A DNA stretch of 64,000 nt, taken from NCBI GenBank assembly GCA_027483645.1, contig JAIXUD010000010.1:64001-128000 (forward strand), given 5' to 3'. The notes under the pieces were generated by a model. It worked only from the letters and a program-made list of their open reading frames with translations. It was not told the DNA's origin and ran no database searches. Origin of the DNA: Sphingobacteriales bacterium (lineage in GTDB: Bacteria; Bacteroidota; Bacteroidia; Chitinophagales; CAIOSU01). A program made the translations under genes and the position numbers. This document shows positions 9,631 to 52,864 of the stretch, one piece after another (the stretch's first letter is position 1; each line of letters starts with the position of its first letter).

Positions 9631-9647
9631 TTGGTTGATTTGTTATA

Positions 9648-9694
9648 GGTTGATTGGTTATTGGTCAACAGTCGACTGTCCACAGCCCACAGTT
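9648..9694. repeat. Degenerate heptad tandem repeat
   Basis: Reads as seven-base units GGTTGAT-TGGTTAT-TGGTCAA-CAGTCGA-CTGTCCA-CAGCCCA-CAGTTCC. Units differ but keep the 7-bp register. An inverse array lies at 10001-10033. Confidence 0.6.
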
Positions 9695-10000
9695 CCTTTT
9701 GATTGATTAGTTACTATATTTTTTTGTGGTGAAAGTGATTGCCCTTGTTTCGGATTCACCATAATTAATAGTCGACGGAGCTTGGTAAAAATTTTATGGT
9801 TTTGATGCCGCCTTCTACTTCAGTTCAACTACTGCTTATGATTGAGTACATACGCAAATGGTTGCTCGTTAGGCAAGATAATGCCTAATGATATAAATTC
9901 CAATTTTTTATGGTAATGGGAAGAAAGGTGGGGTTGGATTTATAACGACCCGAATTGTGCAGCACCAATGAGTCTCACCCAAAAGCGCGGCAGGCTAATG

Positions 10001-10033
10001 TCCAATAAACAATCAACAAATAACCAATCAACC
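10001..10033. repeat. Heptad tandem repeat, inverse partner of 9648-9694
   Basis: AATCAACAAATAACCAATCAACC with approximate 7-bp periodicity; 10019-10033 is the exact reverse complement of 9648-9662. It ends 3 bp before the TonB receptor stop codon. Confidence 0.55.
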
Positions 10034-10036
10034 ACA

Positions 10037-12587: not shown

Positions 12588-12700
12588 ACTGGTTATTAGT
12601 TATTGTTTACTGGTTATTAGTAGTGGTTAATGATATTCCGTTTTATCTCTTATCGGCAATGTAGTTTTACCAATAACTAATAACCAATAACCATTCAACC
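12588..12700. repeat. Paired inverted degenerate heptad repeats
   Basis: Left array TGGTTATTAGTTATTG (12590-12605) with a second similar unit to 12632; right array 12668-12700 reads ACCAATA-ACTAATA-ACCAATA-ACCATTC. The 16-bp segment 12590-12605 is exactly complementary to 12671-12686. The right array ends 3 bp before the stop codon of the downstream-strand gene. Confidence 0.6.
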
Positions 12701-17330: not shown

Positions 17331-17365
17331 GGTCCATCGTCTATGGTCTATTGTCCATGGTCCAT
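17331..17365. repeat. Degenerate heptad tandem repeat, five units
   Basis: Reads GGTCCAT-CGTCTAT-GGTCTAT-TGTCCAT-GGTCCAT, five 7-bp units starting 6 bp after a stop codon. Confidence 0.7.
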
Positions 17366-41645: not shown

Positions 41646-41651
41646 TATTTG

Positions 41652-41686
41652 TTAGACGCAAGATATTAGACACAAGACACAAGACT
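41652..41686. repeat. Degenerate heptad tandem repeat, five units
   Basis: TTAGACG-CAAGATA-TTAGACA-CAAGACA-CAAGACT, starting 6 bp after the ribF stop. Confidence 0.65.
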
Positions 41687-41698
41687 GCTGCATTTTAT

Positions 41699-41807
41699 CT
41701 GAATCAGAATTTACAGAATTGAAGAATTACCGAATTCATTTTGTAAATTTTAACGTATTGATTGTTACTGATTCTATAATTTTATAATTCTGTAAATTCT
41801 GATTCAG
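41699..41807. repeat. Long inverted repeat of period-8 units
   Basis: CTGAATCAGAATTTACAGAATT (41699-41720) is the exact complement of 41786-41807 (22 bp). The left side continues with GAATT every ~8 bp (GAATTTAC, GAATTGAA, GAATTACC). It lies just upstream of the LRR gene and could form a large hairpin in its leader. Confidence 0.65.
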
Positions 41808-41812
41808 GCAAT

Positions 41813-42289
41813 ATGAAAAACCCATTCCTAAACTCCGTTCTCCTGTTGCTGCTTACTATCGCATGCACCGGTACTTTGCTCGCGCAAAACGAAGTGGCTA
41901 TTGATAATAAGATGTTCAGTGGCAACTGGTTTGATAATATGGAGGATGCCAAGAAAAGCCCCGAGAAGGTATTTTATTTGGATTTGAGCCTTCAAAAGCT
42001 GAAAACCTTCCCCTTGGAGATTTTCACCTTTACCAACCTGCAAGAGTTGCACCTGCCTTATAACTACTGGGCCAGCATACCCGCAGAAGGTTGGGCCAAA
42101 CTAGCCAAATTGGAAATACTAGACCTCAGCGGCAATTACTACCTCAATAAGCTACCCATTGATGGCTTAGCCCAATTGAAAGCCCTAAAATCGCTATTGC
42201 TGAAAGACAACAAACTGAACGCCGGCGAAGCAGATAAAGCCGCCAAAGCCCTGCCCCAAGCCAAAGTAGAAGCCAGCGCCCATAAATAA
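41813..42289 (+). CDS. Secreted leucine-rich-repeat protein
   Basis: 158 aa. Signal peptide MKNPFLNSVLLLLLTIACTGTLLAQ; four LRR units with the LxxLxLxxNxL pattern (LDLSLQKLKTFP, LQELHLPYNYWASIP, LEILDLSGNYYLNKLP, LKSLLLKDNKLN). No sorting domain. Periplasmic protein-binding role by inference. Its leader overlaps the 22-bp inverted repeat. Confidence 0.8.
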   Translation: MKNPFLNSVLLLLLTIACTGTLLAQNEVAIDNKMFSGNWFDNMEDAKKSPEKVFYLDLSLQKLKTFPLEIFTFTNLQELHLPYNYWASIPAEGWAKLAKLEILDLSGNYYLNKLPIDGLAQLKALKSLLLKDNKLNAGEADKAAKALPQAKVEASAHK

Positions 42290-47979: not shown

Positions 47980-48014
47980 AAAAAAGCCCCCTACGAATCT
48001 TCGCAGAGGGCTTT
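47980..48014 (-). terminator. Rho-independent terminator of rplS
   Basis: On the minus strand CAAAGCCCTCTGCG and CGTAGGGGGCTTTTTTCG form a stem around AAGATT and end in a T run. Confidence 0.75.
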
Positions 48015-48047
48015 GTATATGTGACCACGCTTGAGGCGTGGAAATAT

Positions 48048-48422
48048 TTATGCTTTTGCAGCAGCAGGGGCAACAGCCTGGCGCTTCTCAGCGATACGGG
48101 CTTTTTTACCGCTAAGGTCGCGCTGATAGAAGATACGTGCACGACGTACTTTACCTACTTTGTGAATTTCTATCTTATCGATGTTTGGCGAGAAGAAAGG
48201 GAACACACGCTCAACACCTACACCGTTGCTGATTTTACGAACGGTAAAAGTAGCAGTAGTGCCACTTCCACGACGTTGAATAACATCACCACGGAACGGC
48301 TGTACGCGCTCTTTATCGCCTTCAATAATGCGGTAGTAAACAGTAATATTATCACCGGCTTTGAACGACGGGTGGTCTTTGCCTACAACTAGTAACTCGG
48401 TAACTTCTTTTATCAGGTTCAT
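48048..48422 (-). CDS. rplS: 50S ribosomal protein L19
   Basis: 124 aa. [32 protein letters not shown] and [43 protein letters not shown] are the L19 blocks. Sits at the 30S-50S interface of the ribosome. C-terminal Ala/Lys tail (VAPAAAKA) is a common extension in this phylum. A TATCTTTG box precedes it at 48456-48463. Confidence 0.98.
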
Positions 48423-48455
48423 GGCCTAGAACATTGGATTTTTAAAACGTGACTG

Positions 48456-48463
48456 CAAAGATA
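48456..48463 (-). promoter_or_regulatory. Putative -7 box of rplS
   Basis: The minus strand reads TATCTTTG (TAnnTTTG) 33 bp before the ATG; TTTG 15 bp further upstream is closer than the usual 19. Confidence 0.45.
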
Positions 48464-48482
48464 ATGCTTTTTAACTTCCAAA

Positions 48483-49169
48483 CTAATTTTTTTCGTCACT
48501 TAGTAGGTCAGGGCGTCTATTTTTTGTCCTTTCCATAGCCATATCGTGCCGCCAGATGTCAATTTGCTTGGTATTGCCGCTTAGCAACAGCTCCGGAACC
48601 TTGAGCCCATTATAGTCGGCGGGGCGGGTATACACAGGCGGGGCCAGCAACCCATCTTGAAAAGAATCGAACAAGGCCGAGGTTTCGTCATTCAGCACAC
48701 CGGGTATCAATCGGCCAATCGTATCCACCAAAATAGCCGCCGCCAGCTCTCCGCCAGAGAGCACATAATCGCCCACCGATATTTCTTTGGTAATATACAG
48801 CTCGCGTACGCGCTCGTCCACGCCCTTGTAGTGCCCACAAAGGATGATGATGTTCTGCTTCATCGAGAGGGTGTTACAGGTGCGTTGGTTCAGGGTTTCG
48901 CCATCGGGCGTCATATAAATGATCTCGTCGTACGTGCGCTCGGTTTTGAGGTGCTCAATGCAGCGTGCAATGGGCTCTATCATCATTACCATGCCCGCAC
49001 CTCCGCCGTATTGGTAGTGGTCGACCTGTTTGTGCTTATCGGTAGTGTATTCGCGTATGTCGTGCATGCGTACCTCTAGCAACCCCTTGTCTTGGGCGCG
49101 CTTGAGTATGGAGTGGGAGAGGGGGCTCTCCAGCAAGCCAGGCAGTACGGTGAGGATGTCGATGCGCAT
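48483..49169 (-). CDS. trmD: tRNA (guanine-37-N1)-methyltransferase TrmD
   Basis: 228 aa. MRIDILTVLPGLLESPLSHSILKRAQDKGLLEVRMHDIREYTTDKHKQVDHYQYGGGAGMVM, ILCGHYKGVDERV and ISVGDYVLSGGELAAAI (the trefoil-knot SAM site) identify TrmD. Methylates G37 next to the anticodon to prevent frameshifting. Upstream of rplS on the same strand, the usual order, though rplS has its own likely promoter. Heptad repeats abut its start codon. Confidence 0.97.
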   Translation of the reverse strand: MRIDILTVLPGLLESPLSHSILKRAQDKGLLEVRMHDIREYTTDKHKQVDHYQYGGGAGMVMMIEPIARCIEHLKTERTYDEIIYMTPDGETLNQRTCNTLSMKQNIIILCGHYKGVDERVRELYITKEISVGDYVLSGGELAAAILVDTIGRLIPGVLNDETSALFDSFQDGLLAPPVYTRPADYNGLKVPELLLSGNTKQIDIWRHDMAMERTKNRRPDLLSDEKN

Positions 49170-49172
49170 TTT

Positions 49173-49204
49173 GGTTACGGGTTACGGGTTGCGAGTTACG
49201 AGTT
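49173..49204. repeat. Heptad repeat array upstream of trmD
   Basis: GGTTACG-GGTTACG-GGTTGCG-AGTTACG-AGTT, 4 bp from the trmD start; positions 49174-49197 are the exact reverse complement of 49256-49279. Confidence 0.75.
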
Positions 49205-49255
49205 TTGCATTTTTAAGTCTTTTTTTGTCGAATAGGGTTCGAATCACAGTTATAC

Positions 49256-49285
49256 AACTCGCAACCCGTAACCCGTAACTCGCAA
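49256..49285. repeat. Heptad repeat array abutting the rocD stop
   Basis: AACTCGC-AACCCGT-AACCCGT-AACTCGC-AA, ends at the rocD stop codon; inverse partner of 49173-49204 (24 bp exact). Confidence 0.75.
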
Positions 49286-50518
49286 CTACTTTTCAAATTC
49301 TCTCACCGTCTTTGCAATTATCGCAATGCACTCCCTAAGCTGCTGCTCCGTCATTACCAGTGGTGGGGCGAAGCGTATTTTGTCGCCGTGGGTGGGTTTG
49401 GCTAGTAGGCCGTTGTCGCGCAGGCGGAGGCAGAAGTTCCAGCCGAGGTCTTTGTCGGTGGTGTTGAGTACAATGGCGTTTAGGAGGCCTTTGCCGCGTA
49501 CCAGCTTTATGAGCGGGCTGTTAAGTGCCCGCAGCTCTTTGCGCAATATCTCGCCTAGGCACTGGGCGTTTTCGGCAAGGTTTTCGTCTTTTACTACTTG
49601 CAACGCAGCCATTGCCACCTTGGCTGCCAATGGGTTGCCCCCAAAAGTAGAGCCATGCTGCCCAGGCTTGATAACCAGCATTATGTCATCGTCCGCCAGT
49701 ACAGCCGAAACGGGGTAAACCCCGCCGCTTATAGCTTTGCCGAGTATTACGATGTCGGGGCGTACGTCCTCATGGTCGCAAGCCAATAGCCTGCCCGTGC
49801 GGGCGATGCCGGTTTGCACCTCATCGGCCATAAACAGCACGTTGGCGGCTTTGCACAGGGCGGCTGCCTTGCTTAGGTAGCCGTCGCTGGGCACATCCAC
49901 ACCCGCTTCGCCTTGTATGGGTTCTATGAGAAAGCCCGCTATGGTTGGGTCTTTCAGCGCGTTTTCTAGCGCGATTAAGTCATTATAAGGGATGGTCACA
50001 AACCCAGGGGTGTAGGGGCCGAAGTTCTTTTTAGAGCCCTCATCACTGCTAAAGGACACGATGGTAGTGGTGCGCCCGTGGAAATTGTGCTCGCACACTA
50101 TGATTTTGGCTTCTTTTTCAGCAATGCCCTTCCGCTCGTAGGCCCATTTGCGGGTAAGCTTAATCGCGGTTTCCACGGCCTCGGCACCGGTGTTCATCGG
50201 CAGCACCTTGTCGTAGCCGAAGTACTCACTCATAAACTGCTCATACTCGCCCAAGCTATCGTTATAGAAGGCACGGCTGGTAAGGGTAAGCTTTTGCGCC
50301 TGCTCCACTAGCGCACCCACAATCTTGGGGTGGCAGTGGCCTTGGTTTACCGCCGAGTAAGCCGAGAGGAAGTCATAATACCGCTTACCGTCCACATCCC
50401 ACACGTACACGCCTTCGCCCCTGGCCAACACTACTGGCAGCGGGTGGTAGTTATGGGCGCCGTAGCGATCTTCCAATTCTATCAGTTCCTGTGAGCGGGT
50501 TGTGGTGATTGCTGCCAT
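49286..50518 (-). CDS. rocD: Ornithine--oxo-acid aminotransferase
   Basis: 410 aa class III PLP aminotransferase. Blocks: [29 protein letters not shown] (109-120), [33 protein letters not shown], and PLP lysine K261 in ILGKAISGG. The [10 protein letters not shown] sequence is typical of OAT rather than acetylornithine aminotransferase. Converts ornithine and 2-oxoglutarate to glutamate semialdehyde and glutamate. Divergent from a glutaminase gene; flanked on both sides by heptad arrays. Confidence 0.95.
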
Positions 50519-50553
50519 GGGTTACGTGTTTCGAGTTACGGATTGCGAGTTGG
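50519..50553. repeat. Heptad repeat array upstream of rocD
   Basis: GGTTACG-TGTTTCG-AGTTACG-GATTGCG-AGTTGGC, starting next to the ATG of rocD; same unit consensus as the array at 49173. Confidence 0.7.
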
Positions 50554-51253
50554 CTTAACTCAACAACTACATTCTATAACCAAACAAAGATACTATTTCG
50601 TTCGCGGGTTGTCCAATATTTATCCCCAAAGCGTCATTGCGAAGGCCTACTTGATGTTGCGGTTGGTAGTGCCCTCCAATGGCCTGTGGCTACTTTTCTC
50701 ACTGCTTGCAGTAATCCCCTGCACCGGAGCAAGGTGCTCACCTCCCAATAGTTTTGTCGTCCATGAAGTGAGTTTTGATGCGGGTTTCAGCGGGTTGCTG
50801 AGCAGTGTGTCATGGAAGATGCAAGTGGTTAATAGTCTTGGATTTACGCGCACAAGGATTGCTTAAAAAGTTGAATTTCAATTTTTTATATTTTCAATAA
50901 TGCGTTCGTCATTCCGTCTCGCCTTTGGCGAAATCACGAGGAACCTTCGGTCACCGATGTGCTGAGGTTGAATTGCCGTGTTATGCTTTTGTACTTAGTA
51001 CGGCTAATAAGTAAATCCTTGCATCATAGTAGACATCCCGTTTTAAGAGGAACGCTGGATAAAAATGGGGATACGGAGACTATATAAATGCGTCGCCTAA
51101 ATGTATATTAGTTTTCCTAAAACGATTTTTACTAAAAAAGCATTGCCACAAATAATTTATGAACTTCTTATTGACTTTTATTGAAAATTGGCCTAATGTT
51201 AACGTTGTTATAACATTAAATTGCGAATTTAGCCTAGTTATAAAAATCTGATT
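50554..51253. other. Long divergent intergenic region rich in repeat remnants
   Basis: 700 bp. Contains an ATTGCGAAGGCC-type dispersed repeat (50631-50740) and a fragment with CGTCATTCCGTCTCGCCTTTGGCGAAATCACGAGG (about 50908-50942), a kind of intergenic word I have seen in Bacteroidetes. The last 150 bp before the glutaminase are AT-rich. No credible gene. Confidence 0.55.
50631..50740. repeat. Dispersed intergenic repeat (ATTGCGAAGGCC family), copy 2
   Basis: GCGTCATTGCGAAGGCCTAC, TTGATGTTGC, GGCCTGTGGC, GTAATCCCCTGC in the same order as at 42337-42420 with an insertion of about 20 bp. Confidence 0.45.
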
Positions 51254-52864
51254 ATGCCTGCAAAAGAAAAATTAAACACCATCGCCCTCCCAAAGCAAGA
51301 CCATGAAATACTTGCCGCTTCCAACATTACGGAAGAATACTTGGAGATGCAATACATCTTTTCCTCCATACACCCCAATAGCAACAATGAGCTGAGTGTT
51401 TCCCGATTTTGGAAAGCCCTTACCCGCACCGGTATATTGCACGACGACCCTCGTTTGAACAGCCTTAAAAGCTATCTTTCCAATATCTCGAGCGGCGATG
51501 AGGATCAAACGATGATTACGTTCGAGCAGTTTCGGGAGTTGATAAACCAAAATGCCATAGTTCGAAATGCACTTAAGGGTACTTTGTCGATACCGGCGTT
51601 TAGCGACTTCTGTGGCGATATAGAAGAAATATATCTGGAAACAAAGAAAAACAAAGACGGCGAAGTGGCCACTTACATTCCTCAATTGGCCCGCGTAAAC
51701 CCCGATTATTATGCCATATCGGTATGTACTATCGATGGGCAGCGGTTCTCTATTGGCGATAGCGAGGAGCGTTTTTGCCTGCAAAGCACTAGTAAACCCA
51801 TTACATATTGCCTGGCGCATGAGGAGTTTGGCGAGGAGTATGTGCACTTGCATGTAGGCCGCGAGCCCAGTGGGCAAAAATTCAACGAGATTACCCTTAA
51901 TAACAAGGGATTGCCGCATAACCCGCTCATAAACGCAGGTGCCATAATGAGCTGTGCCCTAATCAATAACAAGAAAGACACGGCCGATGTATTTGAGAAA
52001 GTAATGGATACTTGGAAACGCCTTAGCGGCGGCAAAAAACCAGGTTTCAACAACTCCGTATACCAAAGCGAGCGCGGCACTGCCGACCGTAACTTCGCCC
52101 TTGCATACTTCATGCGAGAGAACAAGGGTTTCCCCGAGCATACCAATATCGTGGATACGTTGGAGTTTTACTTCCAGTGCTGCTCTATTGAGGTGGATGC
52201 CGATATGCTTTCCATTGTGGCGGCCTCGTTGGCCAACATGGGCATCTGCCCGCTTACGGGCGACCGCGTGTTCAGCCCCAAAACCGTACAGAACTGCCTA
52301 TCGTTGATGAGCTCTTGCGGCATGTACGATTATTCGGGCGAGTTTGCCTTTACCATTGGCTTGCCGGCAAAGAGCGGCGTATCGGGGGCATTGATGGTGG
52401 TAATACCCAATGTGGGCGGCTTTGCGGTTTGGGCACCTAGGCTTGATAAAATTGGAAACTCCGTAAAGGGCGTGGAGTTTTGCAAAAAGCTTATTGGCAA
52501 ATACAACTTCCATAAGTACGACAATGTAATAAACGACGGAATAAAGAAGGACCCACGGCTGAAGAAATACGAGAGCAAAACCAACAACATCATGTCGCTT
52601 ATATGGGCGGCTACCTATGGGGATATTGAGGAGATACACCGCCTAGAAGCCAATGGAATCGACCTAAACGCTGCGGACTACGATGGCCGCACCGCACTGC
52701 ATCTAGCCGCAGCAGAGGGCCGTGTGGAAACCGTAGAGTATCTGTTGGTAAAAGGCGTAAACATTAACCCCATGGACCGCTGGAGCGGCACCCCACTAAT
52801 GGATGCCCAACGCGGAAACCATAAGCAAGTAGTGGAATTGCTGATAGCCAATGGTGGAAAGTAA
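51254..52864 (+). CDS. glsA: Animal-type glutaminase (EF-hand-like, glutaminase, ankyrin domains)
   Basis: 536 aa. Three parts as in animal GLS: an N-terminal EF-hand-like helical domain (residues ~25-115, LSVSRFWKALTRTG, DDPRLNSL), a serine-dependent beta-lactamase-fold glutaminase (~120-425) and two to three ankyrin repeats (~445-535, YDGRTALHLAAAEGRVETVEYLL, DRWSGTPLMDA). Catalytic SxxK is S178-T-S-K181 in FCLQSTSKP; supporting residues include Tyr141 (TYIPQL), Asn227 (INAGAI), Glu273 (QSER), Asn280 and Tyr358 (GMYDYSGEFAF). Hydrolyses glutamine to glutamate and ammonia. No signal peptide, so cytoplasmic. Typical bacterial glutaminases are ~300 aa with only the middle domain. Confidence 0.93.
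   Translation: MPAKEKLNTIALPKQDHEILAASNITEEYLEMQYIFSSIHPNSNNELSVSRFWKALTRTGILHDDPRLNSLKSYLSNISSGDEDQTMITFEQFRELINQNAIVRNALKGTLSIPAFSDFCGDIEEIYLETKKNKDGEVATYIPQLARVNPDYYAISVCTIDGQRFSIGDSEERFCLQSTSKPITYCLAHEEFGEEYVHLHVGREPSGQKFNEITLNNKGLPHNPLINAGAIMSCALINNKKDTADVFEKVMDTWKRLSGGKKPGFNNSVYQSERGTADRNFALAYFMRENKGFPEHTNIVDTLEFYFQCCSIEVDADMLSIVAASLANMGICPLTGDRVFSPKTVQNCLSLMSSCGMYDYSGEFAFTIGLPAKSGVSGALMVVIPNVGGFAVWAPRLDKIGNSVKGVEFCKKLIGKYNFHKYDNVINDGIKKDPRLKKYESKTNNIMSLIWAATYGDIEEIHRLEANGIDLNAADYDGRTALHLAAAEGRVETVEYLLVKGVNINPMDRWSGTPLMDAQRGNHKQVVELLIANGGK

Follow-up and report, generated by a model that had tools for sequence, protein, structure and literature searches.

Outward-facing heptad arrays at gene borders in a Sphingobacteriales genome: the trmD–rocD pair and its context

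In most of the genomes surveyed by Mrazek et al. (2007, as quoted in PMC4692102 and PMC4679880), heptads are the commonest unit of long repeats. Those described by Rehm et al. (2015, PMC4692102) are GGGAATC in Xanthomonas and GGGGA(C/T)T in Nostoc; all of the units carry G-tracts, and their preference for four units is tied there to G-quadruplexes. Facing inverted pairs of these repeats are reported in 70 and 75 cases, with function unknown. TAACTGA direct repeats have been described from marine Beggiatoaceae, Cyanobacteria, and a few Bacteroidetes, and proposed as a site for an RNA- or DNA-binding protein (MacGregor, 2015, PMC4679880); in the Beggiatoaceae, 147 of 170 are directed toward a start and 12 toward a stop, mostly in two to four units. 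In Geobacter metallireducens (PMC2700814), paired octamers or heptamers have been designated “global regulator binding sites,” and four tandem GGACCGG heptamers are found at 49 places, within genes as well. A literature search, mainly outside subscription journals, found nothing beyond the Rehm, MacGregor, and Geobacter papers on the units described below, or on the rule that they follow here: at starts and stops alike, a defined strand of the array reads outward, away from the coding sequence.

The trmD–rocD locus

The window (the whole 64,000-nt stretch of DNA that was analyzed) includes trmD (48483–49169, minus strand; TrmD profile 304 bits, cut-off 220) and rocD, for ornithine--oxo-acid transaminase (49286–50518, minus strand; 660 bits, cut-off 378), with rplS downstream of the two (140 bits, cut-off 91). 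Three arrays of the heptad RGTTRCG adjoin trmD and rocD. Array 1 (49173–49204, plus strand) is 32 bp long, or ~4.6 heptads, without departure from the consensus; a gap of 3 bp separates it from the start codon of trmD (49167–49169), and it reads away from that gene. Array 2 (49255–49287, minus strand; 33 bp, again without departure) reads away from rocD and overlaps the stop codon of that gene (TAG), whose AG supplies the first two bases of the array. Array 3 (50519–50552, plus strand; 34 bp, 3 mismatches) also reads away from rocD, with a gap of 0 bp to the start codon. An earlier note on this DNA had described facing arrays between the two genes with 24 bp of exact complementarity, both abutting coding sequence. 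This is borne out, with the left arm at 49174–49197 (plus strand) and the right arm at 49256–49279 (minus strand). The third array that it placed beside the rocD start is present too, with its end at 50552 and not 50553; rocD is indeed bracketed by the family, as it had said, but such bracketing is unusual (4 of 114 array-bearing genes are capped at both ends).

The 24 bp are the longest exact inverted match in the window with arms no more than 200 bp apart, and in 30 sequences simulated from the window by a first-order Markov model the longest was 10–15 bp; longer, imperfect inverted repeats also occur elsewhere in the window. A dispersed repeat of ~35 bp (92–97% identical) lies at 50631–50664, 79–112 bp ahead of array 3, and is also found ahead of arrays at two other loci (L077 and L065).

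Four sister species of the same genus (G001–G004) were compared with the window's own genome (G000; 4.27 Mb in 23 contigs). Stretches of G002 and G004 are 100% identical to the MAGs JAIXOI01 (Sphingobacteriales bacterium C1_MAG_00009) and JAGYJT01 (Chitinophagales bacterium M30B48), respectively, which points to Bacteroidota as the phylum. In all four, trmD and rocD are adjacent, with a spacer of 59–87 bp by ORF calls in G001–G003 and 74 bp by eye in G004. None of them has an RGTTRCG array in this spacer, and the arrays are therefore not essential for trmD or rocD. By eye, there are AT-rich repeats at the same edges in the sisters, including lag-7 arrays in G002 (L092). The rocD stop codon is TAG here and TAA in three of the four sisters; in G004 (L089) the rocD matches are split over reading frames, through either decay or an error of assembly.

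Several other heptad arrays lie in the window. A GGTTGAT/GGTTATT-like array at 9631–9665 (plus strand, start edge) faces a similar one at 10002–10033 (minus strand, stop edge; ends set by eye) across a spacer at 9631–10036, both reading outward. A pair of GGTTATT arrays also face each other, the left member (12590–12621, plus strand) 183 bp from a start edge and the right one (12669–12693, minus strand) 10 bp outside a stop codon and outward. A GGTCYAT array (17332–17365, plus strand) is outward at a stop edge, and an AGACRCA array (41650–41685, plus strand) is outward 4 bp outside a stop codon. Behind the last of these is an inverted repeat (41691–41815) with arms of AGAATTNN-like octads, the right arm extending to the next start codon; the octad arms may be a sister class of the heptad arrays.

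Distribution, placement, and orientation of the arrays

A three-unit RGTTRCG pattern has 85 exact matches in G000 against none for the reversed pattern, used as a control; with up to three mismatches allowed, the numbers are 278 and 6. The pattern is found in all five genus genomes examined, with 19, 48, 133, and 19 matches in the other four; outside the genus, 2 of 55 genomes have one match each. Across the phylum, 17 of 296 genomes (G000 among them) have at least one match, and only G000 has more than 17. Scanning genome contigs for a 24-base pattern gave at least 114 stretches, from many phyla by record title, where our own arithmetic puts the chance expectation at ~0.1; at least three of these loci (L106, L112, and L113) belong to the genus itself. 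Viral contigs (IMG/VR, L323–L351) contain 29 stretches with RGTTRCG arrays. Long arrays made purely of AGACACA or GGTTATT lie at or close to the ends of five G000 contigs (C1, C2, C3, C10, and C15), and the count of the longest arrays is therefore probably too low.

Placement was counted in G000, G002, G003, and G004 as the distance from array end to nearest coding edge. Coding sequences were taken from our own longest-ORF calls, which leaves the starts uncertain and overlooks small genes; and since loci were picked by exact array matches, all rates are conditional on the presence of an array. The 5′ end of the G-strand lies at −3 to 10 bp from a start or stop in 88 of 169 RGTTRCG arrays, the 3′ end in none. 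This holds in each genome: 39 of 71 in G000, 29 of 58 in G003, 16 of 32 in G002, and 4 of 8 in G004, with 0 for the 3′ end every time. The G000 edge arrays are about equally divided between starts (21) and stops (18). Random placement in the same spacers gives a mean of 6.3 of 66 for either end, where 39 (5′) and 0 (3′) are observed; the corresponding means are 5.1 of 41 for AGACRCA and 1.9 of 22 for ATGTACR. A lack of further arrays in the genome, or of any preference for gene ends, would have counted against the earlier note; both the arrays and a strong preference are present. The pattern runs through the whole genome, and the trmD–rocD pair is an ordinary example of it. The same orientation is seen farther afield: among the matches listed in the many-phyla scan, 29 of 103 arrays (80 loci) have the 5′ end at a coding edge and 4 the 3′ end, one of the 29 being L106 from the genus itself, and in the viral contigs the count is 10 to 1 of 37 RGTTRCG arrays (−5 to 15 bp).

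Some features of the edges themselves were also compared. TAG is the stop codon before 32 of 75 arrays and at 108 of 502 array-free stops in the array loci of the four genomes; it is over-represented before arrays because its AG doubles as the first array bases. A T-rich connector precedes the arrays at both starts and stops in three families, with T at 0.65–0.85 at the last base against ~0.33 at array-free edges, a figure that is partly a product of how array ends are defined. The Bacteroidota promoter motif, TTG..TANNTTTG, is found ahead of 1 of 50 start-side arrays, compared to 24 of 397, numbers that are uninformative. Several possible causes of the polarity were considered and rejected. 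It does not come from general strand skew at gene edges: purine and GC skew are absent from the outward 33 bases of array-free edges (350 starts and 336 stops). An inward strand that offers stop codons in every frame does not account for it, as (by eye) TAA is provided by GTTACG, not by GTTGCG or several other units. Rho loading on C-rich inward RNA probably does not either, as some ATGTACR units, and TAACTGA, have no YC dinucleotide (by eye).

RGTTRCG is one of several unrelated units, the others being AGACRCA, ATGTACR, GGTTATT, and GGTCYAT. In 316 kb, consisting of the window and G000 loci chosen for RGTTRCG, there are 35 lag-7 arrays, 4 of lag 8, and 0–1 for each other lag; 2 of 10 lag-7 arrays with units other than RGTTRCG are inside called ORFs. 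Within −5 to 15 bp of a coding edge in G000, 5′ ends outnumber 3′ ends by 40 to 0 for RGTTRCG (of 67 arrays), 30 to 0 for AGACRCA (of 51), 11 to 0 for ATGTACR (of 25), and 6 to 1 for GGTTATT (of 9), which reads nearly alike backwards, making a reversed control uninformative. Widening the interval to −33 to 15 bp brings the 3′-end counts to 1, 0, 1, and 1, respectively. GGTCCAT-type arrays occur at gene edges in both orientations, and the outward rule is not claimed for them. Edge arrays of RGTTRCG are at 23 starts and 17 stops, those of AGACRCA at 7 and 23. Lengths of 31–34 bp are found for 55 of 67 RGTTRCG, 25 of 51 AGACRCA, and 13 of 25 ATGTACR arrays, and longer arrays (47–123 bp) also occur. 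AGACRCA has 91 exact matches in G000 and none in 246 other sampled genomes of the phylum, and is present in G002 (L245 and L247). ATGTACR has 55 matches with up to one mismatch; 11 of its 25 arrays, compared by eye from the 5′ end, are identical over four units, purines aside, the fourth unit being ARGTAC-like, which suggests that they originated by copying and not by independent slippage.

Arrays at opposite edges of a spacer face each other. Among arrays no more than 250 bp apart in the G000 loci of four families, 28 pairs are in the order plus then minus and none in the reverse order. Edge pairs of the same family are in excess (37 of 46), and plus precedes minus in 47 of 47, in loci that were chosen by family. 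Spacers of 40–400 bp in the loci of four genomes have RGTTRCG caps at both ends in 20 cases, at one end in 65, and at neither in 209; for genes in the same loci the numbers are 4, 110, and 271. With 20 doubly capped spacers against 4 doubly capped genes, coupling belongs to the spacer and not to the gene. The doubly capped spacers include 13 co-directional, 6 divergent, and 1 convergent; divergent spacers make up 23 of 85 with arrays versus 32 of 209 without. The longest run shared within an RGTTRCG pair is 8–28 bp, placing trmD–rocD (24) near the top.

At matching edges in sister species, arrays may be kept, absent, or exchanged. In 14 aligned pairs of retained arrays, differences are seen at 36 of 125 purine positions but only 8 of 304 non-purine ones, a comparison that takes the best in-phase shift and only arrays detected in both species, which favors conservation, and in which some members enter twice and two pairs do not involve G000. 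Array lengths differ between species at some matching edges. Elsewhere the family has switched: locus L058 has RGTTRCG at both edges, where in its G002 counterpart the stop edge carries AGACRCA and the start edge (by eye) a GGTTATT-like array, and RGTTRCG at L076 corresponds to ATTTACG in G002. The G003 counterpart of L087 lacks the start-side array, leaving a 45-column alignment gap with flanks that still match, and has another array deeper in the spacer.

Possible origins and roles

The most likely reason for border arrays, tentatively, is some role at RNA ends, with the arrays as dispersed gene-border repeats of ~33 bp that spread by copying and persist outside coding sequences in a single polarity. 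Each array consists of ~4.6 heptad copies, with one or two purine-degenerate positions, set directly outside the coding sequence with a defined strand outward. New arrays would arise by copying of an existing ~33-mer, by recombination or template switching between short repeats, and copies would be retained only outside coding sequences and in outward polarity. The polarity would be kept because a transcript entering the gene would receive a G-poor, weakly structured leader directly before the AUG, while one leaving it would receive the complementary strand directly after the stop. Where same-family arrays cap both edges of a spacer, RNA crossing it could zip the stop and start codons into one long stem, tolerant of purine variation through G-U pairs, that would set the two genes apart. 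Such a function is read from sequence patterns, and some of these do not fit it well: the arms of pairs do not co-vary at purine positions; 65 of the 85 array-bearing spacers are capped on one side only; divergent spacers hold pairs as well, and a promoter between the arrays would leave one arm per transcript. The proposed copying leaves no target-site duplication, and at trmD–rocD itself all four sister species do without RGTTRCG arrays.

Almost as likely as a role at RNA ends, if somewhat doubtful taken alone, is a spread without function and with purging: the heptads could be selfish or born of slippage, with harmful copies purged and the polarity simply what remains. Family turnover at matching edges, absence at orthologous sites, and the existence of 47–123 bp arrays are all in keeping with this, as is the dominance of period 7 among tandem arrays, which fits the idea of polymerase slippage quoted by Rehm et al. 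(2015, PMC4692102) and MacGregor (2015, PMC4679880). Slippage does not explain the sharp 31–34 bp length or the common 33-mer, however, and while purging would account for the avoidance of G-rich leaders before an AUG, it would not account for an equally strict polarity after stops, seen both for AGACRCA (23 stop, 7 start) and in the many-phyla scan (19 stop, 10 start, among the matches listed). That each heptad is the site of an RNA- or DNA-binding protein, with four sites in a row at transcript borders, is unlikely; the narrow range of unit numbers and the conserved non-purine positions would suit such a site, but several unrelated units per genome would call for several proteins of the same habit, and a given gene edge can carry different units in different species. 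A leader hairpin particular to trmD, coupling its translation to rocD or sensing a signal, is very unlikely. The earlier note had expected the inverted pair to fold in the trmD leader RNA, and a strong fold is predicted for RNA across the rocD–trmD spacer (−46.6 kcal/mol, z −7.1), in which the stop and start codons lie at the base. Between arrays 1 and 2 no sigma-70-like site was found and no TANNTTTG motif was seen by eye, making an RNA that spans the spacer plausible. A special trmD leader structure is nevertheless unsupported. The arrays are missing there in four sister species; such pairs accompany many unrelated genes, including divergent ones (13 of 37 RGTTRCG facing pairs); and Rfam has no match at E ≤ 1 in 48000–52000. 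Nor do the arms co-vary: in the 37 RGTTRCG pairs, complementarity between own arms is not higher than with arms reshuffled among pairs (P 0.17), by which the RNA hairpin was rejected as the selected object. In subsets the result is much the same (21 co-directional pairs, P 0.39; divergent pairs, P 0.08; 51 pairs of three families, P 0.42; 17 G000 pairs alone, P 0.055). With arms no more complementary within pairs than between them, the trmD hairpin has probably not been specifically selected.

Mobile inverted-repeat elements, either a MITE or a REPIN moved by a RAYT/Y1 transposase, are a highly improbable source. Y1_Tnp is found in all five genus genomes (18 matches), and G000 and G002 each have one RAYT between two array-capped gene edges (L068:7300–8250, L236, and L253), but only 2 of 10 RAYT loci examined have RGTTRCG arrays, and G004 keeps arrays at the same edges without the RAYT. 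By eye, the L068 RAYT is flanked by its own GTCCC..GGGAC palindromes, with arrays at the outer gene edges; the heptad array is thus not the palindromic REP that flanks RAYT, and a REPIN was rejected on this ground and on the persistence of the arrays in G004. A MITE was likewise rejected, for want of a conserved core or a target-site duplication: among 71 masked stretches ahead of G000 arrays there are only 4 matches between different arrays, which come from one ~35-bp repeat common to three spacers and from the palindromes that belong to one RAYT, and no excess of target-site duplications is found in three families. Barely credible, finally, is a telomerase-like reverse transcriptase adding repeats to DNA 3′ ends. 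It would account for the outward polarity and for inward-facing pairs at a healed break, the polarity in rule-obeying families is that of 3′-end extension, and bacterial reverse transcriptases that make tandem-repeat DNA have been described (DRT10). Against it, the sequence between paired arrays is unique, and an RVT_1 match is found in only one of the five genus genomes, not G000, for which reason this origin was rejected.

Comparison with described heptamer repeats

The arrays here are a G-tract-free, multi-family variant of a known heptamer border-repeat architecture. The repeats reported by Rehm et al. (2015, PMC4692102) resemble them in being heptamers with degenerate positions, in about four units, mostly in spacers; in having the antisense strand just before starts and the sense strand just after stops, which amounts to the outward rule; and in forming facing pairs, with lengths that vary between species at the same genes. 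The differences are that G-tracts are nearly absent here (four GGG runs in 1 of 67 RGTTRCG, 0 of 51 AGACRCA, and 0 of 25 ATGTACR arrays, or 1 of 143 overall); that several unrelated families share a genome and are swapped at orthologous edges; and that divergent spacers are not avoided, whereas the repeats in that report are described as rare between divergent genes. At least three unrelated G-tract-free units in one genome, exchanged at the same edges, argue against the G-quadruplex as the general reason for such repeats.

TAACTGA (MacGregor, 2015, PMC4679880) is likewise a heptamer found in spacers, in one orientation, with 1 nt upstream of a start as the commonest distance. Read outward it is TCAGTTA, close to RGTTRNN, and one set in Flexibacter litoralis, reversed and directly after a stop, fits the outward rule. 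It is not among the units seen here, and differs in being a single unit, and in the Beggiatoaceae one almost restricted to starts, where RGTTRCG here has 23 starts and 17 stops; the excerpted text of that paper does not draw an outward rule for both ends. The Geobacter sites (PMC2700814) share the organization into three to five tandem 7–8-mers, mostly as opposite-strand pairs at variable distance, but as far as the excerpts of that paper go have no reported edge rule, and insertion sequences lie at a fixed distance from some of them. The heptads of Mrazek et al. (2007), as quoted in PMC4692102 and PMC4679880, are a genome statistic, without a polarity or gene-border rule in those quotations.

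Taken with these precedents, the results suggest a little-studied kind of gene-border element, with nothing special to the trmD–rocD pair; trmD is merely one carrier of border arrays. It could conceivably be, though this is rather doubtful, that there is a general, sequence-independent class of such elements in bacteria, defined by architecture and subject to one common machinery or selective rule unrelated to G-quadruplexes. The architecture of that possible class would be ~4.5 heptads, outward at start and stop alike, with facing pairs and exchangeable families. If it exists, it would take in the GGGAATC, GGGGAYT, and TAACTGA repeats along with the families described here, and an old curiosity would become a testable question: what recognizes, or tolerates, only outward polarity at both gene ends.
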